From: Kaistella polysaccharea
GTDB lineage: Bacteria > Bacteroidota > Bacteroidia > Flavobacteriales > Weeksellaceae
DNA length: 64,000 nt
Assembly: GCF_020410745.1 (NCBI RefSeq)
Contig: NZ_CP084528.1
Location: forward strand, 248,001-312,000
Reading direction: 5' to 3'
The position numbers were made by a program, and so were the translations under genes. Below are positions 12,783-46,497 of the stretch, in pieces (the stretch's first letter is position 1; each line of letters starts with the position of its first letter). Under the pieces are notes generated by a model. That model saw only the letters and a list, made by a program, of their open reading frames with translations. It ran no database searches and was not told the origin of the DNA.

Positions 12783-13814
12783 TTAGTTGAGCGTGTGTAT
12801 CAGTTTTTTTAAGGCGATTGCGGCTTGTTCCGGGGTAATGTCGCGCTGAGGGGAACCAAACATCTCATAACCTACCATAAATTTTTTAACGGTTGCACTT
12901 CGCAATAAAGGCGGATAAAAACTCATATGCCAATGCCAATAGTCATTGGATTTTCCGTTTGTTGGCGCTTGATGAATACCGCTGGAGTACGGAAAAGAAC
13001 ACGCAAACAATTTATCATAAGCGCGGGTAATTTTGGATATTGCATCGGCAAATTCAAAACTTTCTGAATCTTTCATCTTTGAAATATCAGAAGAGTGCTT
13101 TCTAGGAATAATCATCGTTTCAAATGGCCAAATGGCCCAAAAGGGGACGAGTACAACAAAACTATCATTCTGATAAATAATGCGCTCATCTTTTCGAAGT
13201 TCCTGACTTAAATAATCACCCAGCAAACTGGATTGATTTTCATTAAAATAAGTTTTTTGATGACCATCTTTTTTATAAACTTCGTTGGGCAATGTGGACT
13301 GACACCAGATTTGTCCATGTGGATGTGGATTGCTACAGCCCATAACCGCTCCTTTATTTTCGAAGATTTGCACGTAATTGATATTCTCCTGCGCCCCTAA
13401 ACTAGCGTATTCTTTTTGCCAGACTTTCACGACTTTATCAATATCTTCAACCGCCATACTTGCCAAACTTTTCGAATGGTCAGGACTAAAACAGATGACC
13501 TTGCAGATGCCCTGTTCGCTTTCCGCCTTAAATAAACCTTCATTGAAAGAGAATTCCGGTGACGTTGCTTGTAGTGCGGGAAAATCATTAGGAAAAGCAT
13601 ATACTTCCTTATAATCTGGATTTTTTTCGCCGTTCATCCTGGTGTTTCCTGCACATAAATAACAGTCGGGATCGTGGGAAGGACTTACATCAGCAAAAAT
13701 GGTTTCTTCCTGCCCTTGCCAAGGGCGTTTAGATCGATGAGGCGACACTAAAACCCATTCTCCAGTGAGGATATTGAAACGTTTATGAGAATAATCCGAT
13801 AAATTTGATTTCAT
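12783..13814 (-). CDS. galT: UDP-glucose--hexose-1-phosphate uridylyltransferase
   Basis: Leloir-pathway enzyme that swaps UMP between UDP-glucose and galactose-1-phosphate. The active-site NPHPHGQIWCQ (HPH nucleophile) is central. Zn/Fe-ligand segments CYLCAGN near residue 54 and HWHMSFYPP near the C-terminus are present, as is the N-terminal GEWVLVSPHRSKRPWQGQ. Length is 343 aa, typical of the family. It is the last gene of the galactose operon, 19 bp after galK. Confidence 0.95.
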   Translation of the reverse strand: MKSNLSDYSHKRFNILTGEWVLVSPHRSKRPWQGQEETIFADVSPSHDPDCYLCAGNTRMNGEKNPDYKEVYAFPNDFPALQATSPEFSFNEGLFKAESEQGICKVICFSPDHSKSLASMAVEDIDKVVKVWQKEYASLGAQENINYVQIFENKGAVMGCSNPHPHGQIWCQSTLPNEVYKKDGHQKTYFNENQSSLLGDYLSQELRKDERIIYQNDSFVVLVPFWAIWPFETMIIPRKHSSDISKMKDSESFEFADAISKITRAYDKLFACSFPYSSGIHQAPTNGKSNDYWHWHMSFYPPLLRSATVKKFMVGYEMFGSPQRDITPEQAAIALKKLIHTLN

Positions 13815-13833
13815 TTTAGTTGGTTAAAAACTG

Positions 13834-14982
13834 TTATTTTAAAATTCGTGTACCCGATGCTAATTTTACATTATAGACGGAACATGCTCGGTCATATTCC
13901 TGTAAGTAACTTTTATTGATTTCTTTTATGAAATCCTCGGCTCCGTCCTTTTTGACCAGGTTGAGTGTGCAGCCTCCAAATCCGCCGCCCATCATTCTGG
14001 CTCCTAAAACATCATTATTTTCTTTTGCCTTATCCACCAAAAAATCCAGTTCTGAGCAACTTACTTGATATTGTTTCCGTAGTCCTTCATGAGATTTGTA
14101 TAATAAGTCACCCAAAGTATTCAAGTTATTTTCAACTATAGCCTGCGAGAACTTTTTCACACGCTCATTTTCTTCGATTACATAGAGCGCTTTTTGATAA
14201 TCTTCTTCGGAAAGCTCATCTTTGATACCATCCAGCATTTCTTTTGAAGCGTCCCGCAGGGTCTTTATCTTTAGCACAGCGGCCACATTCTCACAAACCG
14301 CACGTCTATCATTATAAGCACTTTCTGCCAAATTGTGTTTAACGTTGGTGTTAATAAGTAGGAGTTTATAATTTTTAAAGTCAATTTTATAAGTTGTTGA
14401 TTCTAATGTTCTACAATCCAATAAAAGGACGCTATCTTTCACACCGAACATGCTTGCGTATTGATCCATTATACCGCATTTAACGCCCGTAAAATGGTGT
14501 TCGGCTTGTTGGGAGATTAAGATCATTTCACTTTTGGAAAGTCCTAAATTGAAAAGTTTATTGAGTCCAAACACAAAAGCATTTTCTAGGGCAGCTGAAG
14601 ATGACATGCCTGCGCCTTCTGGAATGTTACCGCCAAAGACGGCATTAAAATTCCCAACTGTAAGACCTTTTTTCTGGATTTCTGCTACTACACCTAAAAT
14701 GTAATTTCGCCATCCGCCATTAGGCAATTTTTTGATTCCATCTAAATTAAAATCGAGCAGTTCATCTTTGTTAAGGGCATAAACTTTAGAATTTTTGGAG
14801 GAACTTTTAACCATAGCCACCGCAATACCCTTATTTATTGCGGCGGGAAGTACAAATCCTTCGCTATAATCGACATGTTCACCTATAAGATTTATTCTCC
14901 CAGGTGAAAATATCATCAGAGGTTTTTCACGAAAGTGTTTTTTGAAACTCTCCTCAACCTCATTTCGTAATTTTTTATTCAT
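13834..14982 (-). CDS. galK: Galactokinase
   Basis: GHMP-family kinase that phosphorylates alpha-D-galactose at C1. The signature FSPGRINLIGEHVDYSEGFV lies near the N-terminus, the ATP-binding PEGAGMSSSAALE in the middle, and MMGGGFGGCTLNLV near the C-terminus. The ATG at 14982 (MNKKLRNEVEESFKKHF) gives 382 aa, the normal size; a longer frame running into the upstream symporter gene is rejected. It begins two bases after the stop of the symporter gene and is followed by galT. Confidence 0.95.
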   Translation of the reverse strand: MNKKLRNEVEESFKKHFREKPLMIFSPGRINLIGEHVDYSEGFVLPAAINKGIAVAMVKSSSKNSKVYALNKDELLDFNLDGIKKLPNGGWRNYILGVVAEIQKKGLTVGNFNAVFGGNIPEGAGMSSSAALENAFVFGLNKLFNLGLSKSEMILISQQAEHHFTGVKCGIMDQYASMFGVKDSVLLLDCRTLESTTYKIDFKNYKLLLINTNVKHNLAESAYNDRRAVCENVAAVLKIKTLRDASKEMLDGIKDELSEEDYQKALYVIEENERVKKFSQAIVENNLNTLGDLLYKSHEGLRKQYQVSCSELDFLVDKAKENNDVLGARMMGGGFGGCTLNLVKKDGAEDFIKEINKSYLQEYDRACSVYNVKLASGTRILK

Positions 14983-14984
14983 GT

Positions 14985-16571
14985 TTAAGAGAAATAAATA
15001 TAAATGACAACAACAATAATACAGATAGAAATCCCAACGACTTTCAAATATTTCCAAGGTGTGATGTCGACCTTATTGGTATATTCGAGCACAAATGGAA
15101 CTGACCTTGGTCTGAATTTACCGATAATCAGCATGATGACAATATTAAGTACAAACAAAATAGCCATGACATGTAGAAAATGTGGGTAGTTTTCATCGCC
15201 AATTACATAAGGTTTTAAAACAAATTGACTGAAACTATATAAAACGACACCCGAAATAATGGCTATTTTCGCCGCTATTGCAGGCACAAATTTAGTAAGG
15301 TAACCCACGACGATAATGGTCAGAATAGGAATGCTGTAACAGCCATTTACTTCCTGCAAATATCCAAAAAGTCCATCAGGAGCGTTTGCAATCAGTGGTG
15401 CAATACACATTGATAATACCGCCAAACCGGTACCGAATAATTTTCCGGCCTTTACGGTTTCTTTTTCTGTAGCATCTTTCTTGAAATGTGATTTATAAAT
15501 ATCAATTCCAAACAAGGTTACGGAACTGTTCAATGCTGAATTAAAGGAACTTAAAATGGCACCAAAAAGAACTGCGGCAAAGAAGCCTACTAAAGTTGCA
15601 GGTAGCACCTTTGTAACCAACATTGCATAAGCTTCATCAGGATTTTCAAGTTCCGCTCCGAATATATGAAATGCAATTATCCCTGGCAAAACTACAATCA
15701 ATGGTCCCAAAATCTTAAAAAAAGAAGCTAACAATAATCCCTTCTGACCCTCTTTTAAATTTTTTGCTCCCAGTGCTCTCTGAATAATGGCTTGGTTGGT
15801 TCCCCAATAAAATAAATTTACCAACATCATTCCTGTAAAAATAGTAGAAAAAGGAACTGAGGCATCTGGTCCTCCCATAGATTCGAATTTCTCGGGATGG
15901 CTATCGATAAGCACTGAAATACCATCAGAAATACTGCCATCACCAACTGCCAAAAGCCCAAAAAACGGAATCATCAAACCTCCTACCAAGAGTCCCACAG
16001 CATTGATGGTATCGGAAATTGCAACCGCTCTTAATCCCCCAAAAATAGCGTAGATGGAACCGATGATGCCAATACCCCAAACGGTTATCCAAAGCGCAGT
16101 ATTCTTGGTGACACCCAATAATTCCGGCACGTTGAACATGGAATTAATAGCTAATGCACCTGAATATAAAACGATGGGTAGCAATACCACAACATAACCG
16201 CTTAAAAATAAACCTGATGTAATGGTTTTGGTCATTTTATCATACCTCTCCTCAAGAAATTGTGGAACCGTAGTGATGCCACCTTTTAGATATCTTGGCA
16301 ACAAAAAAACCGCTGTAATCACCATGGCAATTGCCGCCAGTGTTTCCCATGCCATGACAAGAATACCTTCTCGGTATGCAGCTCCATTGAGACCTACGAT
16401 CTGTTCGGTTGAAAGATTCGTCAATAAAAGGGAGCCCGCAATAACAGCACCTGTTAAACTTCTGCCTCCAAGAAAATAACCGTCTGATGTGCTCTCATCC
16501 GTTTTACGGGTCTTCCAATAAGATATTATGGCTACGAGTAAGGTAAAACCGACAAATGTTATGAATTGCAT
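14985..16571 (-). CDS. Sodium/solute symporter (SSS family, sugar-type)
   Basis: An integral inner-membrane protein of about 528 aa with some 14 hydrophobic segments. It has the SSS features DGYFLGGRSLTGAVIAGSLL after the first helix, the sodium-site segment LTNLSTEQIVGLNGAAY, and YAIFGGLRAVAISDT in the middle. Its place between a beta-galactosidase and galK argues that it imports galactose or a similar hexose with sodium. The ATG at 16571 (MQFITFVGF) is chosen, because the longer frame would run far back into the glycosidase gene. It starts one base after the glycosidase stop, implying translational coupling. Confidence 0.9.
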   Translation of the reverse strand: MQFITFVGFTLLVAIISYWKTRKTDESTSDGYFLGGRSLTGAVIAGSLLLTNLSTEQIVGLNGAAYREGILVMAWETLAAIAMVITAVFLLPRYLKGGITTVPQFLEERYDKMTKTITSGLFLSGYVVVLLPIVLYSGALAINSMFNVPELLGVTKNTALWITVWGIGIIGSIYAIFGGLRAVAISDTINAVGLLVGGLMIPFFGLLAVGDGSISDGISVLIDSHPEKFESMGGPDASVPFSTIFTGMMLVNLFYWGTNQAIIQRALGAKNLKEGQKGLLLASFFKILGPLIVVLPGIIAFHIFGAELENPDEAYAMLVTKVLPATLVGFFAAVLFGAILSSFNSALNSSVTLFGIDIYKSHFKKDATEKETVKAGKLFGTGLAVLSMCIAPLIANAPDGLFGYLQEVNGCYSIPILTIIVVGYLTKFVPAIAAKIAIISGVVLYSFSQFVLKPYVIGDENYPHFLHVMAILFVLNIVIMLIIGKFRPRSVPFVLEYTNKVDITPWKYLKVVGISICIIVVVIYIYFS

Positions 16572-16572
16572 C

Positions 16573-19713
<3,141 letters not shown>

Positions 19714-19720
19714 CTATAAT

Positions 19721-22700
19721 TTAAAGTTGCATAAAATCTTCGGCGAAAATTTTTCGTAAATAAAATATAAGTTGAGAGGCATTTTCCAGGTTAAATACTA
19801 AAGGAGGTTTTATTTTTAAAACGTTATGATCTGGACCATCTGTGCTCATTAAGATGCCATGGTCTTTCATTCTATCAGCCAAATATTCAGTTTGCGCTGC
19901 CAGTGGGTTCATATTTTTATCCACCAGTTCAATACCTAAAAATAAACCTTGCCCGCGTACATCACCAATAATCGGATAATCTTGAGCCAAACTTTTCAGT
20001 TCCTCTTTTAAATAGGTACCGATTTTTTGTGCATTTTCTTGCAATTTTTCCCGCTTTACAGTTCGAATCACTTCTGTTCCAATAGCACAAGAAACAGGAT
20101 TTCCGCCGAAAGTGTTAAAATATTCCATACCATTGGCAAATTTTTCTGCCACTTCCAGCGTACATGCAACTGCTGCAATGGGATGTCCGTTACCCAACGG
20201 TTTACCAATTGTTACAATATCTGGGATCACATCATGAAGCTGAAATCCCCAGAATTTACTGCCCATTCTTCCGCAACCTGTTTGAACTTCATCTGAAATA
20301 CAAAGGCCTCCCGCTGCTCTAACATATTGATATGCTTTGGTCAAAAATCCATCTGGCAATTCAACCTGTCCACCACAACTAATAATCGGTTCTAAAATTA
20401 ATGCACCCACGCCTCTTCCTTTGGCATGAATCAATTCAATCTGATTTTGAACTTCTCCAGCATACAAATCTGCTGCATTCTCTCCTCGATATTTTCCTCT
20501 AAAGGCATCTGGTAATGGGAAAATATGGGTGTGTTCGGGCGCACCTTTTCCGCCTTTTCCATCAAATTTGTAAGAGCTGATGTCGATACACATATTGCTA
20601 TTGCCATGATAGCCCACTTCACTTGCGATAATATCACGTTGGCCAGTTGCAGCTTTTACCATTCGAATAGCCAGTTCATTGGCTTCACTTCCAGAATTAA
20701 CAAAATGCATTACACTCAATTCTAGCGGTAAGGTTTCCAAAAGCTCTGCAGCAAGTTGATTAATATTATCATGCAGGTAGCGCGAATTGGTGTTGATCAA
20801 TGCCATTTGTTGCTGACCGGCTTTTACTACATTGTAATTTTCGTGGCCAACATGTGCCACATTATTTACAGTATCCAAATACTTTTTCCCGTAAGTATCC
20901 ATAAGATACTGGCCAGCACCACGAACCATTTTGATCGGTTTATTATATTGAAGACTTAAACTTTTGCCTAAATGATGTTTTCGGTACGTGATCAACTCAG
21001 CATTAGATTTTGTCATTCCTGTTTTTAGGTGTTCTGATTTGAACATAAAATTTGGATCGGGACAAATACTTCGCCATACTTCTAATTGATTATGATACGC
21101 AACACCCGGAAAATCATTATCATAATCTAAAAGCGACAACATCATCTGAAAATGAAGGTGGGGCACCCAATTTCCGTTTTCATTTGAGGTTCCCAATTCT
21201 CCAATTTTTTCGCCTTTATCTACGTAATTACCGATTTTATGCATTCTTGCACTCGCTGCAGATAAGTGGCCGTACAGCGTATAAAATATAAAATTTTCAA
21301 CCTGATGTTTTAAAATCACCAAGCCTCCATATTCTTTGTATGCAGCATTATTTACAGAAACCACCACTTCACCACCTAATAAACTGTGAACAGGAGTTAA
21401 GCTGGGTGCCCAAAAGTCAACACCAAGATGGATGGTTCTACTTTCTCTACCAGAATTCCCTATTTTATCATAGGATGTCGAGGTATAAATGGCACGTGGC
21501 TCTAAATAGCCGCCAGCAATTAACTGATTTGGAACTTTCTTTTGAAGTTGATCTATTTTGAACTGGAATACATCTAAATCATTAAACTCCTCTTGATGCC
21601 CAAGCCACAAACTTGATACACTTAAATCCAGTTTATAAACGTGTTCTTTCTGCAAAGAAGGAAAAAGGTCCGCAAAAGTAAAAACCTGTTTATCTGCCCA
21701 AACTTTAAAAGCTGAAGAATTAGGATGAGCTTCAAAATTGCAGACATTTCTAAAACTAAAATAGGCAAAATCTGAATTGATGTGACGCCATTTTTTAAGC
21801 ACTTCCCAAGCTTGTTTTTCGCTTATTAATAAATAGGTATTATCAGGCTCTTTTTCTTTATTTAATGCAGATTTTGTAACCGAAATAACCAATCTCATAG
21901 CAATGGCATCGTATAAATGTAAAAGTTCACCTTCTTGTAACGGAAAAGCAGAATGATAGCCTTTAATAATCGGTAGAGCAGCTTCTAATGGGTCATTATG
22001 ATCCATGATTGCATATGCGCAAGCTACGGCGACGTCATTGATAATTTGCGTGTGTATCGCATCTCCATAATCTATAACCGCTTCAACTTTAGGATTAATC
22101 AAATCTGAGGAGACAATTATATTATTATCGTTCGCATCATTATGAACAACCGCTTTTCTTAAATATTCAAAGGTTTCCTGGGATTCTTCGAAGTTGTTTT
22201 GGAAATATATAATGATTTCTTTTTCCTCCTTTTGGAAAAGATTAACGTGCGCTTTTGTCCACAGAGATTGCGCGATATCCCATAAAAATTCCCGATGTGC
22301 TTCTGGATGATCAAAGCCCTGCAAAGCTTCTGTTAATGAGCCACACTGTTGGCCCAAACTAAACCGTAAATCATCTAACTGTGGATTTACATCACTCCAA
22401 ATACGACCAGGAACCCAACTTAATAATCGCACGTTACGACTCTGTAAATTCTCATCACTAATTTTTGAAATACTATTGCCAAGTCGATCTTTTATAATTC
22501 TCGGCGCTATTAAGTTTGGATTTTTAGTTTCAACAAATTGTAATAATTTCTGTTGAAAATCAAGATAATTTTCGCTTTCATCCGGACGCGAAATTTTCAG
22601 TATAAAATCCGTCGATTTTCCAACTTTAATCTTAAAATTAAAGTCGACTTCGCCAGGTAATTCTTTTGCTTCACCTTTTAAATTATACAGCTTTAGTAAA

Positions 22701-22747
22701 ATTGCTTCGGCTTCCTGGGTTGATATTTTTAAGTTCTTGTACGTCAT
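19721..22747 (-). CDS. Trifunctional fusion: APH-type kinase, M23 peptidase-like domain, class III aminotransferase
   Basis: A 1008-aa protein with three recognisable domains. Residues about 25-300 are an aminoglycoside-phosphotransferase/choline-kinase fold, with [13 protein letters not shown] as catalytic loop and [10 protein letters not shown] as the metal site. Residues about 430-550 resemble LytM/M23: HLGVDFW, LYGHLS and HLHFQ supply the zinc ligands. Residues about 590-1005 are a class III PLP aminotransferase, with [11 protein letters not shown] and the PLP lysine in TIGKPLGNG near residue 847. No signal peptide is seen, so the M23-like domain would be cytoplasmic and probably not a wall hydrolase. 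The kinase plus PLP-enzyme pairing resembles hydroxylysine or phosphoethanolamine phospholyase systems. Its start abuts the previous stop (TAAATG). Confidence 0.9.
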
Positions 22748-24757
22748 TTAATTATTTTCTAACAACATGATAAGATGTGCAGCGCTCCAACTGAAATTTT
22801 TTGCATTCAGGCCTTCGCCCGTTAATGGATGATAATTTTCGCGGATAGGAAGTCCTTTCCCCAATATTCCTTGCGCGCCCTCAATAATCTGCACAGTGGC
22901 CTTATCCGCTTCCGTATCAAAGCCATAATTGCGCAAACCTCTAACCGCAAAATAAGCCTGATCCAGCCAATTTGGACCTCTCCAATAGCCTTCGAGAGGA
23001 TTAAATTTTTCATGGTCAGCACTCATCGTTTGAAACGGCACTTTAGTATAGAATTTTTTTGGATCCATTAATTTATTCTTCACTGCAATTGCTTGTTCCT
23101 GTGTAGCTGCATTCGCCCAAAGTGCGGTCCAGCCTTCACTTCCTTCACCTTTGATAAATTTCTTTCCATCAAGAGAAGTGTCATAAAACCATCCATCTTC
23201 TGGATCATAGAATTGGTTTTGAATTTTCACTTTCAATAGTTTAGCTTCAGAGGTATATTGATTGGCATCGTCGAGATTATTTATAATTTTAGCCAATCGG
23301 CTTAAAAATATTTTTTCCGCAAATAAATAAGCATTTAAATCTACACTTTCTTGATCAAGAGAGTAGGCGCCTTCACTATTTTTTAGAATTTTAGAATTGT
23401 CAAAACGAATGGCGTTGTCCATTCCGCTTTCCCATTTTGCCGCGATCAGGGTGCCATCTGTAGAACCGTATTCGCATAAGCCATCTTTGTCATGGTCACG
23501 TTTTTCATACCACCATTCGTGATACTTTTTTAGTTTGGGGTAGAACTCCTTTACAAATTCGATATCTTGATCCTGCTCATAAATTTTGGATACGGCCCAC
23601 GCTGAAAGTGGCGGTTTGGTATCGCGGTAATTTGGCATCTCAATAGTAGTGTCTCGGAAAATACAATCTACGATAAAACCATCTTCACTTTGAAAATCAA
23701 ACATGGCTCTCATTTGATTTTTTGCCAAATTTAGGTCATAATAAGACAGACCAACCGCGTGCTTCCACGAATCCCAAGACCAAAATCCATTAAACCACTC
23801 GTAATGATAGCTTGGAAACAGGCCTTCGTGCATAATTTCGCCGGCTGCAATACGCCAATTATTCTGCATCGTCAAGTGCGCTTTTGCCAAAACTTCAGCA
23901 TATTTCTCATTTTTAAATTGGGGTTTTCTATTTTCGATTAGCTTCTTAAGCTGCTGATCTTTTTCTTGCTTTCGAGCTTTCAAAATTGAGTCAAAATCGA
24001 CTTTATTGATGCTTTTCCTTTCCTCTTCCCAAGAATATTCTGGAAATATAAAAGTCTGCGCTACTACAATCTCTTTGGTTTCCTGTGGTTTAAGTTTAAA
24101 ATTGTGTTTTGCTTTATACTGTAAATCATTCACTAATTCAACCTGAGTATCTTTTGGGAAGGTGATATAGCCGTTGGCGTTGGATTTTGTAGAATTTATT
24201 TTGATGGTTTCATCATTTTGTGAAAACGAGATTCCATCAATTAAAACAGATGAATTGCCCCAAAGTAGTTCTAAATTAATTGTTTTATTTCCAATATTTT
24301 TTACGATGGTTTGAACTAAAGCAGTATTTCCGTTTTTAAACACCAAGGTTTCGTTTACGTGAATATGATTCCCGTATGCGTCCATCTCTAAATGACTGGA
24401 ATAACTTTTCTTGTTGTCGTATTTTAGAGATTGAAACTTGCCATTGACTTTTACGGAAGCATTCATTAAAGAGGAGGTTAGCCAAACGCCATTCTGCTGC
24501 GTCATTAAAAAAGGTCCGGAAAATCCCAATCCCTCATTTGCGTTTTTATGTAGACCATAAGCAAACCACGCACCCTGATCTGAAAACATTAAACCTGATT
24601 TGTCAACATCACTTTTAGGGCTGACTTGGTAATCCAGAATATTTTTACTGTATTCAAGATAAGGAAAAATCGTCGTATCTCTGGTAAATTGTGCTGGTGT
24701 GCAACTGCAAATTAGTAGGCCCAAAACCAAAGTAAGTGCTTTCATTTTATTAGTCAT
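22748..24757 (-). CDS. GH63-like (alpha/alpha)6 glycosidase, lipoprotein
   Basis: About 669 aa. The N-terminus is a lipoprotein signal (KALTLVLGLLICSC); two in-frame ATGs, at 24757 and 24745, are both plausible starts. The C-terminal two thirds carry motifs of the GH63/YgjK-type barrel: WSWDSWKHAVGL, WESGMDNAIRFD, YWRGPNWLDQAYF and the terminal TGEG...NFSWSAAHLIMLL. The aspartate of GMDN and the glutamate of TGEG are the likely catalytic pair. E. coli YgjK of GH63 prefers Glc-alpha-1,3-Gal, which would suit a galactose locus, but substrate is inferred. GH37 or another related clan GH-G family is the alternative. It overlaps the preceding epimerase gene by eight bases if the first ATG is used. 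Confidence 0.82.
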   Translation of the reverse strand: MTNKMKALTLVLGLLICSCTPAQFTRDTTIFPYLEYSKNILDYQVSPKSDVDKSGLMFSDQGAWFAYGLHKNANEGLGFSGPFLMTQQNGVWLTSSLMNASVKVNGKFQSLKYDNKKSYSSHLEMDAYGNHIHVNETLVFKNGNTALVQTIVKNIGNKTINLELLWGNSSVLIDGISFSQNDETIKINSTKSNANGYITFPKDTQVELVNDLQYKAKHNFKLKPQETKEIVVAQTFIFPEYSWEEERKSINKVDFDSILKARKQEKDQQLKKLIENRKPQFKNEKYAEVLAKAHLTMQNNWRIAAGEIMHEGLFPSYHYEWFNGFWSWDSWKHAVGLSYYDLNLAKNQMRAMFDFQSEDGFIVDCIFRDTTIEMPNYRDTKPPLSAWAVSKIYEQDQDIEFVKEFYPKLKKYHEWWYEKRDHDKDGLCEYGSTDGTLIAAKWESGMDNAIRFDNSKILKNSEGAYSLDQESVDLNAYLFAEKIFLSRLAKIINNLDDANQYTSEAKLLKVKIQNQFYDPEDGWFYDTSLDGKKFIKGEGSEGWTALWANAATQEQAIAVKNKLMDPKKFYTKVPFQTMSADHEKFNPLEGYWRGPNWLDQAYFAVRGLRNYGFDTEADKATVQIIEGAQGILGKGLPIRENYHPLTGEGLNAKNFSWSAAHLIMLLENN

Positions 24758-25649
24758 AAGCTTGTATTTCAATGTTCCATTTCACACTATAGGTTTTTCC
24801 AGGCTCTAATATCTGCAGGTCTATTTTATTATTAAAACTATTTGCGGGACCCGTAATAGGTTCAATCGCAAGAATATTTTTAATATTTGGGGTATGGATT
24901 TGCAAATAATTGTCTTCGGAATCAGAACTTAACTTCACAAAATATACTGGTGTTTTAAAGATGATACTGCTTTTATTCAATTTAAAACAATCATCAAAGT
25001 AACGTTCGCCTATAGAGAAAGGTTTTTTAACAACACTATCTTCAACTCCGGTAGCAATCATTTCCAAATCAAAAATTAGCTTTGTGGTGCTGTCCATTTC
25101 CAGATTGCTCTCTTTCAAATTACTACTAAAAAAATAAGGATGCCAACCCAAATTAAAAGGAAAGGCCTTATTATCTTCATTTTTTACATCTACCTTTAAA
25201 TTAATTCCTTCGGTGGTAAGTGTATAAGTTAAGAAAATTGAAAACTTAAAAGGAAATCCGCTGACAATATCTTTTTCCTGATAGGCAATTGTGACAGAGG
25301 CGTAAGATTCTGATTCTTCCGATTCCACAAAGTGGAAAATCTTATTGTAAACAAGTCCGTGCAATGCATTATTGCCATCATTTTTTTCTAAATTAAATTG
25401 CTTTTCCTTGAAAGTGTATTTTCCAAGTTTGATCCTATTTGCAAAAGGAAATAATATCGCTGACGCATATATATCAGAATAGCCAGATGATTCAAGATCA
25501 CTTATTATTGTAATTCCGTTAAAAATTAACTCTTGTAAACTTCCACCAGCATTCAAATTGATCTTCGCAGAAGTGTGTTGAGTCTCATTTACAAGCTCTA
25601 TTTCCTGTAAAAGATTTTCGAAATTCTTTATTTTATTAACTTTAAACAC
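24750..25649 (-). CDS. Aldose 1-epimerase-like protein
   Basis: A 299-aa galactose-mutarotase-fold protein. LNAGGSLQELIFNG, FPFANRI, NALHGLVYNK with the conserved histidine, FNLGWHPYF and a late EPITGPANSFNN with the catalytic-type glutamate are in family order. Mutarotation of galactose before galK is the expected role. The start is a GTG at 25649, 11 bp after the regulator stop; no in-frame ATG lies near it. No signal peptide is seen, so it is cytoplasmic. It could also be a broader hexose mutarotase. Confidence 0.87.
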   Translation of the reverse strand: MFKVNKIKNFENLLQEIELVNETQHTSAKINLNAGGSLQELIFNGITIISDLESSGYSDIYASAILFPFANRIKLGKYTFKEKQFNLEKNDGNNALHGLVYNKIFHFVESEESESYASVTIAYQEKDIVSGFPFKFSIFLTYTLTTEGINLKVDVKNEDNKAFPFNLGWHPYFFSSNLKESNLEMDSTTKLIFDLEMIATGVEDSVVKKPFSIGERYFDDCFKLNKSSIIFKTPVYFVKLSSDSEDNYLQIHTPNIKNILAIEPITGPANSFNNKIDLQILEPGKTYSVKWNIEIQAYD

Positions 25650-25660
25650 TTTTAGGTTTT

Positions 25661-26659
25661 TTAGATCGATTTTCTAACTATTAAATAATTAGGATTCTCT
25701 ATTTTTAAATTTTCATTTCCCATCACCATTTCTGCCAATCGCTCACCCATTTTATTAAAATCTGTGGAAATAGTTGTAATTCCACCTTCAACTATTTCTT
25801 TTAGTAAGGTGTCATTATAAGAAATAATGCCAACATCTTCAATTAAAACCAAGTCTAGCTCCTTAAATTTTTTAATTATTTTGATAAGGTTCCGGTCATC
25901 TGGAATTAAATAGACGTCCCCTTTATTCGGCACATAATCTTTCAAGGTTCCAATTATTTCATGTTTAATATCATGTTCTAAACAAAACTTTTGAAAGCCT
26001 GCTAACATCCCTAAAGGCTGTTTATCAGATTCAAACAGTAAAATCATTTTTTGATAGGATTTCATCAAATGAAGTCCCTCACTCAATGCTTTGTATATAT
26101 CTTTTTCAAAGTTCTGATAGATGGCTGGGTATTTTCGCAATTCTTTATGCATTTGGTCAAGAATGTAAACGCGGTCTTGTGGCAGCTTATCTATAACCGA
26201 ATGAGTATCCTTAAGATTTGCGGGCATTATGATATAAGCATTATAAATTCCCATGTTGTCATATAATAATTTACTGAAAACAGAGTAATTAAAATGATGA
26301 AAGAAAATATCCACTTGTACGCCTTCATCCAAATTATTTAAAAATGAATTATAAAGATCTTCTTTGAAAGCATTTAGTTCATCAAATAATAAAAAGATTT
26401 TTTTAACGGTACTGATATTTTCACTTTTCACGTAATATCCTTTCCCCGGAACAGACTGAATAATACCCCGTAATTTCAAATCATTGTAAGCTAATAAAAC
26501 GGTATCTCTGGAGATTGAAAACCGATTTCTGATACTATTAATTGAGGGCAGTTTATCTCCGCGCTTATAAATTCCAGTAAGTATAGCATTTTCAATAGAT
26601 GAGATAATCTGTTTATATTTTGGAGAACCTGCACTATTATCGATACTTATAATACTCAT
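25661..26659 (-). CDS. GntR-family repressor with LacI/PBP-type sensor domain
   Basis: The N-terminal winged helix (KYKQIISSIENAILTG, GDKLPSINSIRNRFSISRDTV, GIIQSVPGKGYYV) is GntR-type. From about residue 85 a periplasmic-binding-protein fold follows, as in AraR-like regulators (KKIFLLFDEL, YIIMPANL, KMILLFESD, IGIISYND-like). Such proteins release DNA when a sugar binds. As first gene of the operon and neighbour of the divergent susC, it very likely controls both in response to galactose or a galactoside. The ATG at 26659 is preferred over the GTG at 26665, giving 332 aa. Confidence 0.88.
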   Translation of the reverse strand: MSIISIDNSAGSPKYKQIISSIENAILTGIYKRGDKLPSINSIRNRFSISRDTVLLAYNDLKLRGIIQSVPGKGYYVKSENISTVKKIFLLFDELNAFKEDLYNSFLNNLDEGVQVDIFFHHFNYSVFSKLLYDNMGIYNAYIIMPANLKDTHSVIDKLPQDRVYILDQMHKELRKYPAIYQNFEKDIYKALSEGLHLMKSYQKMILLFESDKQPLGMLAGFQKFCLEHDIKHEIIGTLKDYVPNKGDVYLIPDDRNLIKIIKKFKELDLVLIEDVGIISYNDTLLKEIVEGGITTISTDFNKMGERLAEMVMGNENLKIENPNYLIVRKSI

Positions 26660-26664
26660 AAGCA

Positions 26665-26697
26665 CAAATGTATAGAATTAACTGCTGAATTGACAAA
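26665..26697 (-). promoter_or_regulatory. Promoter of the galactose operon
   Basis: Minus strand TTTG (26694-26697) and TACATTTG (26665-26672), 21 bp apart, match the -33/-7 consensus. The predicted start site is so close to the regulator ATG that the mRNA would be nearly leaderless. A short inverted pair GTTC-gtat-GAAC at 26750-26761 in the same divergent gap is a possible, weak operator. Confidence 0.55.
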
Positions 26698-26799
26698 CTA
26701 GTAGGGACTGGTATGTTCAATCCAATTTTTCATTTTAAATTCGCTAAACGTTCGTATGAACAATTGTTGTAATTAAATGTAATTAGTAAAATCCGTATT

Positions 26800-29700
26800 A
26801 TGAATTTAAAAATTAGCGAAGTTATTAAGCAACTTAGCACCAAACTGCCACTTCTGGTTGCGATATTTGTTTTAGTTGGGTTATTAAGTGCTTTTCAAGC
26901 CCAAACCAAACAAATTTCCGGTACTGTACGTGCTAATGGCATGTCAGGTTTGCCCGATGTTACTGTTGCTGTTAAAGGTGAAGAAAGTACATCTACAAAG
27001 ACAGATAGTGATGGAGCTTATACTATCAAAATTCCAAATGACAAATCTGTTTTAATCTTCAGATATCTGGGATATGTAAGTCAAGAAGTGCCCGTTAATG
27101 GTCTTAGCATCATAGACGTCAATTTAGAAGGTAAATCTCAGGATTTGGATGAGATTGTACTGGTAGGCTATGGAACTCAAAAGAAAAGTGATGTTACTGG
27201 AGCCATCAGTTCGGTAAAAAGTGAAGACCTTAATAAGGTTGTCACTACGAATCCTGTTGATGCGTTGCAGGGTAGAGTTGCCGGAGTTACCGTTACTTCT
27301 TCCTCTGGAAGCCCGGGAGCGGCAGCTGATATTACCATTAGAGGTATTGGCAGTTTTGGAAACAATCAGCCGTTGTATATTATAGATGGTGTGCAGGCTG
27401 ATCCTTATTTTATTAATTCTAATGATATTGCATCTATTGAAGTCTTAAAAGATGCAGCTTCAGGTGCTATTTATGGGACAAGGGCGGCTAATGGTGTTAT
27501 TATCATTACAACCAAAAAAGGTAAAAGAGGTGAGGCAAAAATAGAGATTGATAATTCTATAAGTTTCAATACTGCACGGCAGAAAATGAAACTATTGGAT
27601 GCTAATGGCTACCTTTCTGTGCATAGACAAATGTATGAGAATGCAGGAGAAGCTTTACCGCAGTATATTCTAAATCCGCCCAATGTAAATACAAATTGGT
27701 ACGATCAAACCCATAGAAATGGACAATTAAATCTAATGAATGTAAGGGTTAGTGGTGCCTCTGATAATATAAATTATAGTGTGGCGGGCAGTTATGCCGA
27801 CGAATTGGGTATTCTTATAGGATCTGGTTTTACAAAAAAAGGCATTAATGCCAATATGGGAATCACCAAAGGAAAATTAAAGATAAATACTACTCTAAAC
27901 TACAGTGAAACGAAACGGGAAGATTACAAATTTTCTTTGCGAGAAACTTACTTTATATCACCGTTGATTCCTGTATATGATCCTACCAAACCTTCCGGAT
28001 TTGGTTACAGAAATGGAGACTTGCCTGATCATAGAAATCCCGTAGGTGAGGATGCTCTGATTAAAGGCTCAACAAAGTTGAAATATTTTCTAGGAAATGT
28101 AGGGCTGAGTTATAATATTACAAAAGGTTTGGACGCCAACGCCAATTTTGCGCTGGCCAATAGAGATACTTACACGTTCGCTTTTCATCCTGCTTATAAA
28201 GTACGTGATATTGATGATAATCCTCAAAATGAGTATGCATTTATATCGGAATACAGTAGTGAATTCAGAAGATTTAATCAAGAATATACCCTGAATTACA
28301 AGTTTGACCTCAGTAAGCATTCTTTTAATTTATTGGCGGGTTACCAAAGAATTTCTGAACCATTTAAGGAGACCTACATTCAGGCAGAAGGGTATAAAAT
28401 AGATGCTGAAGGCAATAAGGTACCTGCAACTATTTTGGATCCAAGTTTTCAAACCCTCAATGCATTCTCGGATGGAACATATTCTGCTGAAGGCACCAAC
28501 GCAAATTACGCGTTAGTATCTCAGTTTGGTAGATTAAATTATGCTTTTAACGATCGCTATTTGCTACAAGCCAGCGTTCGTAGGGATGGAAGTTCAAAAT
28601 TCGGCATAAATAATCAGTATGGTGTTTTTCCATCATTTGCTTTAGGCTGGAAGGTAACGGATGAAGCATTTATGCAGAATCAAAATTTATTTAATTTTTT
28701 AAAACTGCGTTACAGTTGGGGCCAAGCAGGTAATGATAGTGCCTTAGGCTACTATGATTATGTGGCACTTATCTCTCGTGGTAAAGATCAAGATACGGGA
28801 GGCTACGTTTTTGGGAATCCACAAACTTCCTATTTAGGCAGTATTGCACGTGATTTACAAAATGATGATCTGAAGTGGGAGACAAATACTTCTTCTAATT
28901 TCGGAGCTGATTTTACAACTTTAAAAAATAAGCTAAAAGGTTCTGTAAATTATTATAAAACCACTACCGCAGATTTGCTGATAACCAAAGAAGTTCCTCC
29001 TTCAAGTGGTGTAAATAATCCGATTGTAAATGTTGGAGAATTTGAAAATAAAGGGTTAGAATTTGAATTAGGTTATACTAATAAGGATCATAAAGTTAAT
29101 TATTCGGCATTTGCTACATTCACAACCGTAAATAGCGAAGTCACAAAATTGAGTAATGCGGGACAAAAATTATATGGAATAGGACTATTGTTTGGATCAG
29201 ATCATTTTGTAAACCAAACTCAAGTTGGTTACGAGCCAGGGGCCTATTTTCTGCCAGTCGCAGACGGTATTTTTCAAAACCAGGCAGAAATCGATTCTCA
29301 TAAAGCACAGCCAAACGCCTCGCCCGGAGATATCAGATTTGTAGATCAGAATAAAGACGGTAAAATTGATTCCGAAGATGATACTTATCAAGGCACAGCG
29401 ATTCCTAAATTTGAATATAGCTTGAGTTTATCTGCAGATTATAAAAATTTTGATGTCAGTGTCTTTTTTCAAGGTGTAGGAGGCAACAAAATCTACAATG
29501 GTAATGACTTTAGACTTTTAAGTCTGGATACAGGTAGAAATTTCAGAGTGGAAGCCGAAAATGCCTGGACACCCACTAATACCAATACAAATATACCAAG
29601 AGCAGTATTAGGTGATCCGAATAGAAATAGCAGGGCGTCTACCAGATTTTTGGAGGATGGCGATTATTTGAGAATAAAAACTATTCAGCTTGGATATTCC

Positions 29701-29895
29701 CTAACAGGTTCGGTATTAGAAGCCTTAAAAATATCAAAATTTAGACTTTATGTCACAGGACAAAATCTCTTTACTTTTACCAATTACAGTGGGTTAGATC
29801 CCGAAGTAGGTGGAAATGTTTTATCCAGAGGGATTGATAATAATTTATATCCAAAATATAAGTCAGTGATTTTAGGTGTTCAGTTAGCATTTTAA
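26800..29895 (+). CDS. SusC/RagA-family TonB-dependent outer-membrane transporter
   Basis: A 1031-aa protein with a signal sequence (LPLLVAIFVLVGLLSAFQAQ), a carboxypeptidase-regulatory-like domain (ISGTVRANGMSGLPDVTV to FRYLGYVSQEVPV), the TonB box region VLVGYGTQKKSDVTGAI, and the plug with DALQGRVAGVTV and PLYIIDGVQ. A 22-strand barrel ends in LGVQLAF. SusC proteins import oligosaccharides with a SusD lid, here encoded 23 bp downstream. Its position opposite the galactose operon makes a galactose-containing oligosaccharide the likely cargo. Long N-terminus before the signal core (about 15 residues) is normal for this family. Confidence 0.95.
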   Translation: MNLKISEVIKQLSTKLPLLVAIFVLVGLLSAFQAQTKQISGTVRANGMSGLPDVTVAVKGEESTSTKTDSDGAYTIKIPNDKSVLIFRYLGYVSQEVPVNGLSIIDVNLEGKSQDLDEIVLVGYGTQKKSDVTGAISSVKSEDLNKVVTTNPVDALQGRVAGVTVTSSSGSPGAAADITIRGIGSFGNNQPLYIIDGVQADPYFINSNDIASIEVLKDAASGAIYGTRAANGVIIITTKKGKRGEAKIEIDNSISFNTARQKMKLLDANGYLSVHRQMYENAGEALPQYILNPPNVNTNWYDQTHRNGQLNLMNVRVSGASDNINYSVAGSYADELGILIGSGFTKKGINANMGITKGKLKINTTLNYSETKREDYKFSLRETYFISPLIPVYDPTKPSGFGYRNGDLPDHRNPVGEDALIKGSTKLKYFLGNVGLSYNITKGLDANANFALANRDTYTFAFHPAYKVRDIDDNPQNEYAFISEYSSEFRRFNQEYTLNYKFDLSKHSFNLLAGYQRISEPFKETYIQAEGYKIDAEGNKVPATILDPSFQTLNAFSDGTYSAEGTNANYALVSQFGRLNYAFNDRYLLQASVRRDGSSKFGINNQYGVFPSFALGWKVTDEAFMQNQNLFNFLKLRYSWGQAGNDSALGYYDYVALISRGKDQDTGGYVFGNPQTSYLGSIARDLQNDDLKWETNTSSNFGADFTTLKNKLKGSVNYYKTTTADLLITKEVPPSSGVNNPIVNVGEFENKGLEFELGYTNKDHKVNYSAFATFTTVNSEVTKLSNAGQKLYGIGLLFGSDHFVNQTQVGYEPGAYFLPVADGIFQNQAEIDSHKAQPNASPGDIRFVDQNKDGKIDSEDDTYQGTAIPKFEYSLSLSADYKNFDVSVFFQGVGGNKIYNGNDFRLLSLDTGRNFRVEAENAWTPTNTNTNIPRAVLGDPNRNSRASTRFLEDGDYLRIKTIQLGYSLTGSVLEALKISKFRLYVTGQNLFTFTNYSGLDPEVGGNVLSRGIDNNLYPKYKSVILGVQLAF

Positions 29896-29918
29896 ATTAT
29901 TAATAAAAACGAAAAAAA

Positions 29919-31463
29919 ATGAAATATCTAAACAAAATAGTTGTGGCTGCTTTTTTAACAGTTTCTCTGATTTCCTGCCGTGACGATGATTATTTAGTAC
30001 AGAAATCACCAGATCAGTTAACCTCTAGTAATTTCTGGCGAAACGCCGCAGATGCACAGTCAGGTTTGGTCGCAGCCTATTCAGAATTAGAGTCAAGAAG
30101 TAATTTCTGGGATGGTTGGCAGGAAGGAAGACCGGTAATAGAATATTTTAGATCAGACTATGCTTTACCTGGTCCAGATGCCAGCAATTACGCACATTGG
30201 ATGTCGATATTCAATTTCAATTATACCAATGGACATACCTTTGTAGATGTTTTATGGACTACTAATTACAAAGGTCTCAACTTTGCCAATCAAGTCATTG
30301 CAAAGGTAGGAGAAATGACTTCTGATCAAATATCAGACGCTGAAAAAAAACAGATTATTGCTGAAGCTACGTTTTTAAGAGCCTATTATCATTTTAAACT
30401 TTTAACGCTTTATGAAAAAATTATCATCAGAGATGAATTGATAACAAATGAAACTTTGGATAAAGGTTTATCCTCGCGCCCTGACGCGTGGAGCATTATT
30501 ATCAGTGACTTTAAACATGCTGCTGAAAATTTAAAAACTGTTTCCGAAACTGATCCGGGACGGGCTACCAAAGGAGCAGCATTGGCATATTTAGGAAAAG
30601 CTTTTATGTATAAAGCTGGAGACGCAACATCGGCAGAAAGCAGTGATTTTAATAATGCAAAAATGGCTTTCAGCTCTATTGTAGATGGATCTGCTGGTAA
30701 CTATGCTTTAGAGCCGAATTTTTCCAGTTTGTTTAACGGCGAAAATGAAAATAATAAAGAGTCTATTTTTGAACTTCAATTTAAAACCAGTGATGCCACC
30801 TCTTGGAATGCCACAATATTACATGCATTTGTGGGCGATTGGTCTATAGGAGGGTGGGGAGGCATCGCTGCAAGCCCGGGTGTAGTTAACGAAATGAAAG
30901 GGGAAGGCATGATAGCTAGCAATGGTTTGTATGATAACCGACTCTATGGTTCATTGTACTTTAGAGACCCCTTCTACAATAATACTTCCACTAAAGAAAT
31001 GCAAGGTAGTACTTGGGATGTCTTAATGAATGAAACTTATGGAAATACCAATGAGAACGCTGCATATTTTAGAAAATGGTTACCTAACTATGTTAGCAAT
31101 AATAGCTATGTTGGAGTAAATGTTGTGCTAATGCGCTATGCTGATGTCCTTCTAATGTATGCTGAAGCGCTAAATGAAACGGGTGCTACAGCTCAGGCCA
31201 TTCCATACATCAATCAGGTGAGAAAAATTCATGGATTTATGCCTGCAATTAAGGTTACTTCTCAAGCCGATGTTAAAAAGCAGATCATTCATGAACGAAC
31301 AATGGAGTTGACACTTGAATCTGTACGGTTTTTTGATTTAAGAAGATGGGGAATGTTGGATCAAGCAATGAAAGCAGCGGGTAGAACAAATTTTAATTCT
31401 GCAACGCATGCCTACTTGCCAATTCCTTTATCTGAAATACAATCGAATTCCCAAATTGATTAG
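29919..31463 (+). CDS. SusD/RagB-family surface glycan-binding lipoprotein
   Basis: A 514-aa lipoprotein (signal ending VSLISC, followed by RDDD, which resembles an outer-leaflet export signal). The SusD fold is shown by the N-terminal LTSSNFWRNAADAQSGLVAAY segment, the TPR-like AEATFLRAYYHFKLLTLY, and the C-terminal VLMRYADVLLMYAEALNE and HERTMELTLESVRFFDLRRW motifs. It forms the hinged lid of the SusC channel at the cell surface. It is followed by a strong terminator, so susC-susD form a two-gene unit. Confidence 0.95.
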   Translation: MKYLNKIVVAAFLTVSLISCRDDDYLVQKSPDQLTSSNFWRNAADAQSGLVAAYSELESRSNFWDGWQEGRPVIEYFRSDYALPGPDASNYAHWMSIFNFNYTNGHTFVDVLWTTNYKGLNFANQVIAKVGEMTSDQISDAEKKQIIAEATFLRAYYHFKLLTLYEKIIIRDELITNETLDKGLSSRPDAWSIIISDFKHAAENLKTVSETDPGRATKGAALAYLGKAFMYKAGDATSAESSDFNNAKMAFSSIVDGSAGNYALEPNFSSLFNGENENNKESIFELQFKTSDATSWNATILHAFVGDWSIGGWGGIAASPGVVNEMKGEGMIASNGLYDNRLYGSLYFRDPFYNNTSTKEMQGSTWDVLMNETYGNTNENAAYFRKWLPNYVSNNSYVGVNVVLMRYADVLLMYAEALNETGATAQAIPYINQVRKIHGFMPAIKVTSQADVKKQIIHERTMELTLESVRFFDLRRWGMLDQAMKAAGRTNFNSATHAYLPIPLSEIQSNSQID

Positions 31464-32312: not shown

Positions 32313-33440
32313 TTAGGCTAATTTAATTGATGCATCTTTAAAATTAAGTTGTTGAATTTTTAGTTCTAAGATATATTCGAAGTGAGGTATTCGATTGCCT
32401 TCCTCATCGAGATCGAAAATACCGCAATTGCTGTATTCAGAAAGGTCATCCCAATTCGGTCGGTCTGTTACGGGATAAATGCAAACTCCCCAAAACGGAA
32501 TCCCTGCTTTCATCACAGCTTGACATTCTGCTGCAATTTCCTGCAGCCATTCTACACGCCCTTCTCCGAAATGACCGGTTTCTGAAATAAAGATGGGTTT
32601 CTCATATCGTAGAAAAGCACCAAATAATAGTTTTCTTAGTGGCACTCTTGCTTGGGCGGAATCGGGCCAGTAAATAGTTTCTCCACCTTCGATCCATTGA
32701 CAGTTCCAGTAATAATTGACTCCTAGGATATCAAATAAATCATTACTCCCGCCCAATTCCGGACAAATTCTGCCCGTAATCATATCGGCAGCCTCAAACT
32801 GGTATTCGTTAATTTTAAAAAGTTTTTCGTCAGATATTTTCTCATTTTGGTGAACTTTTACCAAAGGTTCCACTAAAATGATCACTGCAGTAGGATCTTC
32901 TTCTTTGATGACTTTAATACCGAGGATCGCTGCTTTACAGAGATGATATTTAATATCCCAACCGCTTTTTTCAAGGAAGGGAACTGTTCCTCTTGCGTCA
33001 CCGGAAAACCATGACAGAAAACTGATTTCATTTACAGGGACAATCAAAAGTCTTTGTGTTGTATTTTTTTTGTAAAATTTTACAAATGCTGAGCACAATT
33101 TGGTAAAACGTTCGCCGAATTTCGGATGTGTTGGAAACAAGTCAGCAGGATATCCGAAATGAATTAGATCCCAAACCTGCTGAATCCCTAATTTTTCTGC
33201 GATCTCTATTCTATCTAATACCTCGCTGAAATCAAATTGACCAGGACTTACTTCTACGGAACTCCAACAGATACCTTCTCTCACTGAAAATATTCCTATA
33301 TCTATTAAAAGTTGATAATCTTCTTCTGCCCTTAAATGATGTTGCGTAGTTTCCAAAAGATTAATCCGCTCACCAGAACGATTGATGTGGTCAGCACATT
33401 CAAAACCGCCTAAGAAAAAAGAACTAAATGGATTTTGCAC
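32313..33440 (-). CDS. Clan GH-A (GH1-like) glycosidase-type protein
   Basis: A 375-aa cytoplasmic TIM-barrel protein. FFLGGFECADH opens the barrel, VREGICWSSVEVSPGQFDFS is the beta-2 region, VNEISFLSWFSGD carries the acid/base glutamate, FDILGVNYYWN follows, and PIFISETGHFGEGRVEWL carries the nucleophile. It is shorter than true GH1 beta-glucosidases and may act as a glycosyl transferase or hydrolase on an intermediate. The start is a GTG at 33440 inside the end of glf (17-bp overlap), so it is tightly coupled to UDP-galactopyranose mutase. No signal peptide is present, which argues for a biosynthetic rather than digestive role. Confidence 0.78.
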   Translation of the reverse strand: MQNPFSSFFLGGFECADHINRSGERINLLETTQHHLRAEEDYQLLIDIGIFSVREGICWSSVEVSPGQFDFSEVLDRIEIAEKLGIQQVWDLIHFGYPADLFPTHPKFGERFTKLCSAFVKFYKKNTTQRLLIVPVNEISFLSWFSGDARGTVPFLEKSGWDIKYHLCKAAILGIKVIKEEDPTAVIILVEPLVKVHQNEKISDEKLFKINEYQFEAADMITGRICPELGGSNDLFDILGVNYYWNCQWIEGGETIYWPDSAQARVPLRKLLFGAFLRYEKPIFISETGHFGEGRVEWLQEIAAECQAVMKAGIPFWGVCIYPVTDRPNWDDLSEYSNCGIFDLDEEGNRIPHFEYILELKIQQLNFKDASIKLA

Positions 33441-46311: not shown

Positions 46312-46497
46312 GATTATTTGGTTTGCAATCAAAATTACTAAATAATTTAATTAGTATGTAATTTATTACATAATTTTTAACCAAATGAGATGAGTTTTAC
46401 TAAATAAATGGGGTATGAGTCCTATTTTAATGAATATAAAATTCCACAAAAAATAATTTTTCAAACTTAATTATTCTTCTGAAAACTTCTAATTTAA

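Follow-up and report, generated by a model that had tools for sequence, protein, structure and literature searches.

A putative utilisation locus for collagen glycosyl-hydroxylysine in Kaistella polysaccharea, centred on a kinase, M23 peptidase and phospho-lyase-type fusion protein

A stretch of 64,000 nucleotides from the Kaistella polysaccharea genome (contig NZ_CP084528.1, positions 248,001 to 312,000; hereafter the window) contains an unusual gene. Its product joins a kinase, an M23-type peptidase domain and a class III pyridoxal phosphate (PLP) enzyme in one chain of 1008 residues, and the gene is closely flanked by two glycosidase genes: the gap between the GH63 gene (end at 22748) and the fusion (start at 22747) is 0 bp, and that between the fusion (end at 19721) and the GH2 gene (start at 19710) is 10 bp. 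What is such a protein for? The original prediction, based on the sequence of the window, described this chain, its cytoplasmic appearance and its spacing, and suggested that the locus degrades glucosyl-galactosyl-hydroxylysine. The description was borne out in all these features, all three Pfam domains scoring above their gathering thresholds, and the suggestion is supported by the kinship of the lyase domain and by the neighbouring genes, as far as sequence comparison can carry it. The ten genes at 12783-31463 are probably a locus of the SusCD type for using the collagen glycoside Glc-alpha1,2-Gal-beta-O-hydroxylysine, either free or in peptides.

The fusion is not a chance product, as it belongs to a curated full-length family and the same fusion is present in 71 of 73 scanned loci. 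The NCBIfam model NF004799 (PRK06148) covers residues 5-1004 (profile positions 8-1011 of 1015) with 1134.7 bits at a cut-off of 1128, and by our reading of the family the order kinase, M23, class III PLP is the same. This family is labelled 'hypothetical protein' and has no assigned function; its members carry no annotation beyond 'hypothetical protein' or 'aminotransferase'. Hence the protein is a member of a known uncharacterised family, and the new part is the case for its job, that is, the pathway proposed below. No signal peptide was apparent when the sequence was inspected by eye.

The best matches of the PLP domain in PDB are 6tor (ethanolamine-phosphate phospho-lyase, presumably the human enzyme; 437 bits) and 5g4i (a phospholyase, which we take to be from Arthrobacter aurescens; 319 bits), both aligned over nearly the whole length of the domain, whereas the next solved enzyme, dialkylglycine decarboxylase, scores 168 bits. 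Judged by these similarities, the domain is of the phospho-lyase (AGXT2L/ETNPPL) type and is nearer to lyases than to transaminases, in agreement with the AGXT2L kinship that had been expected; it is proposed to eliminate phosphate and ammonia from a phosphorylated amine. The kinase region (residues 1-340) had no PDB matches. The solved relatives of the M23 domain are M23 enzymes, DipM, lysostaphin, LytM and ShyA among them, the best one at 35.6 bits.

The window protein was aligned with 55 relatives, drawn from the fusion loci described below, that are 39-77% identical to it. Residues H440, D444, H494, H530 and H532 of the M23 domain, N203, D204, N209 and D226 of the kinase, and D819 and K849 of the PLP domain are invariant in all 56 rows, and H202 of the kinase is conserved in 55. 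We take these to be the LytM zinc ligands and catalytic histidines, the kinase catalytic residues and the PLP catalytic residues, respectively. The full set of LytM ligands had been noted in the original prediction, and since the five residues are retained in every row, the M23 domain is not expected to be dead. However, the model in which only the kinase and the lyase act on hydroxylysine does not explain this domain.

The GH63 protein is a member of the YgjK-like family, again as had been predicted: its nearest solved relative is E. coli YgjK (3w7s, 241 bits), and it scores 340 bits against the NCBIfam alpha-glucosidase model PRK10137, below the cut-off of 625. YgjK acts on Glc-alpha1,2-Gal, and the same activity is proposed for the window enzyme; we know of no YgjK in a hydroxylysine locus. 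The SusC/SusD pair (26800-31463) is divergent from the operon with the glycosidases and the fusion, and adjacent SusC and SusD genes together with glycosidases form the standard pattern of a SusCD utilisation locus. The glycan Glc-alpha1,2-Gal is attached to hydroxylysine in collagen according to PMC8626586 and to section 6.5 of PMC11012932, although in its abstract the second paper gives the glucose as beta.

From the domain identities, which are what the analysis establishes, we infer all steps of the following pathway. SusC and SusD would import the glycoside, or a glycopeptide carrying it, to the periplasm. Glucose would be taken off by the GH63 lipoprotein and galactose by the GH2 lipoprotein. 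The freed galactose would be taken up by the SSF symporter and enter the GalM/GalK/GalT route, and hydroxylysine would go into the cytoplasm. The kinase of the fusion would convert hydroxylysine to 5-phosphohydroxylysine, from which the PLP domain would eliminate phosphate and ammonia. The product of a 5-phosphohydroxylysine lyase is 2-aminoadipate 6-semialdehyde, which would be in equilibrium with its cyclic form, piperidine-6-carboxylate. The host's own piperidine-6-carboxylate dehydrogenase (C1:907504) could then produce 2-aminoadipate. In collagen the residue next to hydroxylysine is glycine, and our guess is that the M23 domain trims hydroxylysine from short glycine-containing peptides.

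Homologous loci provide evidence for this assignment. Among 77 loci found, those matching only the M23 part (L081-L084) were excluded; of the 73 scanned, 71 contain a fusion ORF (open reading frame), whole or cut, and some of these loci are shortened by contig ends. One or two representatives of each cluster of neighbouring genes were scanned against Pfam or NCBIfam. The 71 loci are mostly from Bacteroidota, with one from Actinomycetota and one from a metagenome-assembled genome (MAG) of Holophagae. The neighbours are GH63 (43 loci), GH2 (40), SusC (32) and SusD (33), and in 40 of the 43 loci with GH63 its gap to the fusion does not exceed 29 bp. The examined flanks contain the SSF symporter in 7 loci, GalK in 6, GalM and the regulator in 5 each, and GalT in 4. 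The full ten-gene order of the window is observed in L016 and, with two extra genes, in L057, and L017 has eight of the ten genes, without SusC and SusD.

Hydroxyproline genes were found in 13 of the 71 loci: the proline-racemase family (12 loci), DAO-type oxidase (10), pyrroline-2-carboxylate reductase (7) and a DHDPS-type gene (3). Xaa-Pro, S37 or DUF885 peptidase genes were found in 18 loci. Two of the scanned representatives score over the cut-off, namely 4-hydroxyproline epimerase (581 bits, cut-off 376) and pyrroline-2-carboxylate reductase (379 bits, cut-off 322). Best matches below the respective cut-offs were obtained for the oxidase, for the DHDPS-type gene, for the Xaa-Pro peptidases and for the aldehyde dehydrogenase accompanying the hydroxyproline genes, as well as for a second racemase paralogue, with trans-3-hydroxyproline dehydratase as the top match (370 bits, cut-off 540). 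None of these neighbour genes, GH63, GH2, SusC and SusD included, was found in a small control of 16 neighbourhoods (about 20 kb each) around standalone M23 genes.

The standalone M23 proteins (L098, L102, L105-L107, L109-L113, L081, L144-L158) are relatives of the middle domain of the fusion and have no apparent export signal; the length is 222-233 residues in a set of 11. Their loci yielded no clue to the role of the M23 domain: no neighbour family was observed in more than 5 of the 16 loci, and the common ones are unannotated.

The enzyme expected to act on the lyase product was observed close to the fusion in two scanned loci. In L059 (Wocania arenilitoris), the piperidine-6-carboxylate (2-aminoadipate semialdehyde) dehydrogenase gene is directly upstream of the fusion (817 bits, cut-off 730). 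In L124 it is upstream of GH63, two genes from the fusion (826 bits at the same cut-off), and its end is visible at the edge of L129. In two more genomes the distance to the fusion is 9 kb (G397) and 17 kb (G405). The gene of the Kaistella genome lies outside the window (830 bits) and adjoins a class III aminotransferase match. As this enzyme is common in the order, its mere presence was rejected as a marker and only its position counts. The operon beside the fusion in L059 (2376-9802) also contains a KamA-like radical-SAM aminomutase (below cut-offs), a thiolase, a HemL-like class III enzyme and two CoA-transferase-type subunits (one scanned, of the pcaI/scoA type). Together with the dehydrogenase, it could convert 2-aminoadipate, by way of 3-aminoadipate and 3-oxoadipate, into succinyl-CoA and acetyl-CoA; we know of no description of such a route.

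We also searched 346 genomes of the order. Full-length fusion matches (E = 0) were found in nine genomes, five of them over the cut-off. A form of 965-966 residues was found in two (G510, G522), and the one scanned contains APH and Aminotran_3 but no Pfam M23. In eight genomes the protein consists of kinase and lyase and is about 750-770 residues long. In five of these (G262, G397, G504, G429, G405) the order is GH63, a gene of 710-730 residues (cut by the boundary of the examined region in G504), and the two-domain fusion; the middle gene is GH42 in both loci scanned (L124, L130). SusC and SusD adjoin the two-domain loci of G397, G429 and G405. Downstream of the fusion in L124 there is a gene best matching the YdiJ D-2-hydroxyglutarate dehydrogenase (582 bits, below the cut-off of 1350). 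A 24 kb contig of G504 (C35; L127, L128) combines GH63 and the two-domain protein with hydroxyproline and peptidase genes: its genes match DHDPS, aldehyde dehydrogenase, the proline-racemase family, oxidase, Xaa-Pro peptidases, pyrroline-2-carboxylate reductase and S37, and the racemase-family gene is a 4-hydroxyproline epimerase scoring over the cut-off.

The association extends to another phylum. Of 382 matching plasmid records, 74 have a single place that covers 80% or more of the query. Four of the nine stretches L114-L122 (L115, L116, L119 and L121, from Sinorhizobium/Ensifer) contain a gene clustering with the L115 beta-galactosidase. Our ORF calling selects antisense frames when the DNA is rich in GC, and the gene order of L115 was therefore taken from the annotation of the record; it runs amino-acid ABC transporter, SDR, fusion, sugar ABC transporter, glucosidase, beta-galactosidase. 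The glucosidase matches MGH1-like_GH (158 bits) and the galactosidase GH42 (520 bits); the glucosidases of L119 and L121 have 24-26% identity with the window GH63. L114, L118 and L122 have a common regulator adjoining the fusion, which is Lrp/AsnC by annotation or scan in L114 and L118. No glycosidase or hydroxyproline partner was observed among the scanned genes of L117 and of two MAGs from other phyla (L075, L080), except for an alpha-L-fucosidase near L075.

In a tree of 55 PLP-domain rows, where the PLP enzymes of L159 (Rhizobium binae) and L160 (Azospirillum) were not properly entered, the fusions and the standalone enzymes L161-L163 form one 46-row clade (support 100/100), apart from class III enzymes of the Kaistella genome and others; the tool warns of several long branches meeting. 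Within the tree, the Bacteroidota three-domain proteins (23 rows, 100/99), five Flavobacterium-type two-domain proteins (100/100) and three Sinorhizobium rows (100/99) are separate branches. A glucosidase and a beta-galactosidase accompany the lyase in all three, with GH42 replacing GH2 in two of them. The rhizobial association looks separate from those of Bacteroidota. We tentatively suggest that dedicated collagen-glycan loci were assembled more than once in bacteria around a trifunctional protein, whose cytoplasmic M23 domain would free hydroxylysine from peptides that contain glycine, whose kinase would phosphorylate it and whose PLP domain would perform the elimination.

Co-occurrence was considered in 61 genomes that, by their matches, are probably Flavobacteriaceae (set f3). 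The 4-hydroxyproline epimerase is present in 14 of 18 genomes with the fusion and in 19 of 43 others (one-sided Fisher test, p = 0.016). Without G510 and G522, an exclusion chosen after seeing the data, the counts are 14 of 16 and 19 of 45 (p = 0.0017). In a set of 62 genomes, the GH63 subtype of the window locus, defined by a bit-score band that was set after the list had been seen, occurs in 7 of 19 genomes with the fusion and in none of the 43 without it (p = 0.0001). All these p-values are too small, as the genomes share ancestry.

To judge by sequence identities, it is very probable that the locus came from a Flavobacteriaceae-type group by horizontal transfer. In a family sample of 246 genomes, only the window's own genome has a full-length fusion match. 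In none of the genus's 35 other genomes do the best SusC matches (E up to 1e-100) exceed 37% identity, compared to 80% for Gelidibacter. The fusion and GH2 are 78% and 80% identical to Gelidibacter proteins, and GH63 is 74% identical to that of Wocania (L055). The best matches of GalM, the regulator, SSF, GalK and GalT are also in other Flavobacteriaceae-type loci.

Several observations weigh against a dedicated collagen-glycoside locus. Firstly, GH63 and GH2 are both missing from 25 of the 71 loci, and 18 lack the hydroxyproline and listed peptidase genes as well, some loci being cut by contig ends; 12 of the 19 fusion genomes do not have the GH63 subtype of the window. Secondly, two-domain relatives do without M23 (one of the eight scanned, the rest judged by length). 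Thirdly, the GH63 proteins of two-domain loci are 55-58% identical to those of three-domain loci, so a common origin of the two associations is possible, and the tree does not settle in which order the three lyase branches diverged. Rhizobia are not obvious collagen eaters, and the piperidine-6-carboxylate dehydrogenase is over the cut-off in 237 of the 346 genomes of the order. Finally, neither M9 collagenase nor a proline-racemase-family gene was found in the host genome. No M9 collagenase scores over the cut-off in any of the 62 genomes, with weaker matches in two; it is uninformative as a co-occurring marker, and the genes observed do not account for the opening of collagen. Lacking the racemase-family gene, the host would use the glycan and hydroxylysine but not, by the racemase route, hydroxyproline.

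One alternative is that the substrate of the kinase and the lyase is a different amino alcohol, e.g. ethanolamine or a phenylethanolamine, with the locus serving to degrade a glycosylated form of it. We consider this unlikely, although the solved enzyme most similar to the lyase domain does bear the name ethanolamine-phosphate phospho-lyase. The chemistry may not be bound to hydroxylysine, as on a plasmid of Rhizobium binae (L159, 4646-13254) a phosphotransferase and two class III enzymes are situated among homoprotocatechuate genes (the hpaD/hpaE cluster); this further point against the collagen assignment suggests use of a phenylethanolamine, e.g. octopamine. However, ethanolamine would yield acetaldehyde, whereas the dehydrogenase near the fusion in both scanned loci (L059, L124) is of the piperidine-6-carboxylate type; together with the collagen-type genes, this ranks ethanolamine lower as a substrate. 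The hydroxyproline and peptidase genes described above also point to collagen. The rhizobial homologues are adjoined by amino-acid ABC transporter genes and Lrp/AsnC regulators, and lysine/arginine/ornithine-binding proteins are found near two of five standalone kinase-lyase pairs. Such a pair may serve generally for the use of hydroxy-amines, each case resting on its context.

Even less probable is an ordinary lactose or galactoside operon with the fusion as a passenger having an unrelated job. Indeed, GH2, GalM, GalK, GalT and SSF are standard galactoside genes, and the 25 loci with the fusion and no nearby glycosidase of either family could be seen in this light. However, the galactose genes are the optional part, as the gap between GH63 and the fusion is tight while GalK is rare, and the combination of lyase, glucosidase and galactosidase recurs in three branches with two beta-galactosidase families. 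It is very improbable that the fusion recycles cell-wall material or amino sugars, its M23 domain being a peptidase of the peptidoglycan type and its other two domains using an amine that comes from the wall. Lysostaphin, LytM and ShyA, which are wall peptidases, are among the listed solved relatives of M23 and its five residues are conserved, but the fusion has no apparent export signal, no wall-recycling genes were observed among the scanned recurrent neighbour clusters, and M23 is missing from two-domain proteins that retain GH63 and beta-galactosidase neighbours.

The features of the window locus are collected in the table. Three other observations in the window are a reprolysin-like M12B metalloprotease gene with an Ig domain and a type IX secretion tail (43030-46332, minus strand), possibly encoding a secreted protease; two CoA-transferase subunit genes (938-1639 and 3672-4325, plus strand) with an ABC transporter gene on the opposite strand between them; and, just past the locus, UDP-galactopyranose mutase (33424-34569, minus strand) with neighbouring glycosyltransferases, likely a surface polysaccharide cluster.

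Table. Genes of the candidate utilisation locus and domains of the fusion protein, in window coordinates
Feature	Coordinates	Strand	Evidence and remarks
Galactose-1-phosphate uridylyltransferase GalT	12783..13814	-	Pfam, NCBIfam
Galactokinase GalK	13834..15057	-	Pfam, NCBIfam; true start probably downstream of ORF start
Sodium:solute symporter (SSF)	14985..16673	-	Pfam, NCBIfam; true start probably downstream of ORF start
LacZ-type GH2 beta-galactosidase	16573..19710	-	Pfam; NF052611 999.4 bits, cut-off 999; lipoprotein-like signal by eye
Kinase, M23 and class III PLP fusion, 1008 aa	19721..22747	-	ATG start, no internal stop; PRK06148 family
Aminotran_3 domain, residues 604-1000, proposed 5-phosphohydroxylysine phospho-lyase	19748..20938	-	Pfam PF00202 263.1 bits, cut-off 30.5
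Peptidase_M23 domain, residues 439-536	21140..21433	-	Pfam PF01551 59 bits, cut-off 28.7
APH-type kinase domain, residues 27-263, proposed hydroxylysine kinase	21959..22669	-	Pfam PF01636 75.2 bits, cut-off 23.2
YgjK-like GH63 / MGH1-like glycosidase, proposed alpha-1,2-glucosidase	22748..24772	-	PF22422 223 bits, PF03200 41, YgjK_N 33; lipoprotein-like signal by eye
Aldose 1-epimerase (GalM-like)	24750..25649	-	Pfam
GntR-type regulator with periplasmic-binding-protein-like domain	25661..26665	-	Pfam
SusC-type TonB-dependent outer-membrane transporter	26800..29895	+	TIGR04056 825.5 bits
SusD-type lipoprotein	29919..31463	+	Pfam

The proposed system resembles several known ones. The same two-step chemistry is reportedly performed in animals by hydroxylysine kinase and 5-phosphohydroxy-L-lysine ammoniophospholyase (said to have been described by Veiga-da-Cunha in 2012); the proposed likeness is one of chemistry, and the animal enzymes are two separate proteins, whereas here they would be one fusion with an added M23 domain. 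Unlike 6tor and 5g4i, the PLP domain of the window is fused to a kinase and M23, and its neighbours point to hydroxylysine and not to ethanolamine. As in SusCD polysaccharide utilisation loci, there are SusC and SusD, glycosidases, a regulator and a symporter; however, the window locus would act on a glycosylated amino acid, and the catabolism of that amino acid is included. The animal collagen glucosidase PGGHG removes glucose from Glc-alpha1,2-Gal-hydroxylysine according to PMC8626586; it belongs to GH65, whereas the window glucosidase, proposed to act on the same bond, belongs to GH63. A bacterial locus for glycosylated hydroxylysine was not found in the open-access literature searched, which is weak evidence of novelty with most subscription papers outside the search.

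Collagen is a very abundant animal protein. If the proposed assignment is true, it gives a testable function to a family found from marine Bacteroidota to rhizobia, a marker for bacteria living on animal connective tissue, and candidate enzymes for deglycosylating collagen. If the trifunctional reading is also true, it would mean a complete bacterial dismantling of collagen glycosyl-hydroxylysine, which some genomes would combine with prolidases and with both hydroxyproline pathways.

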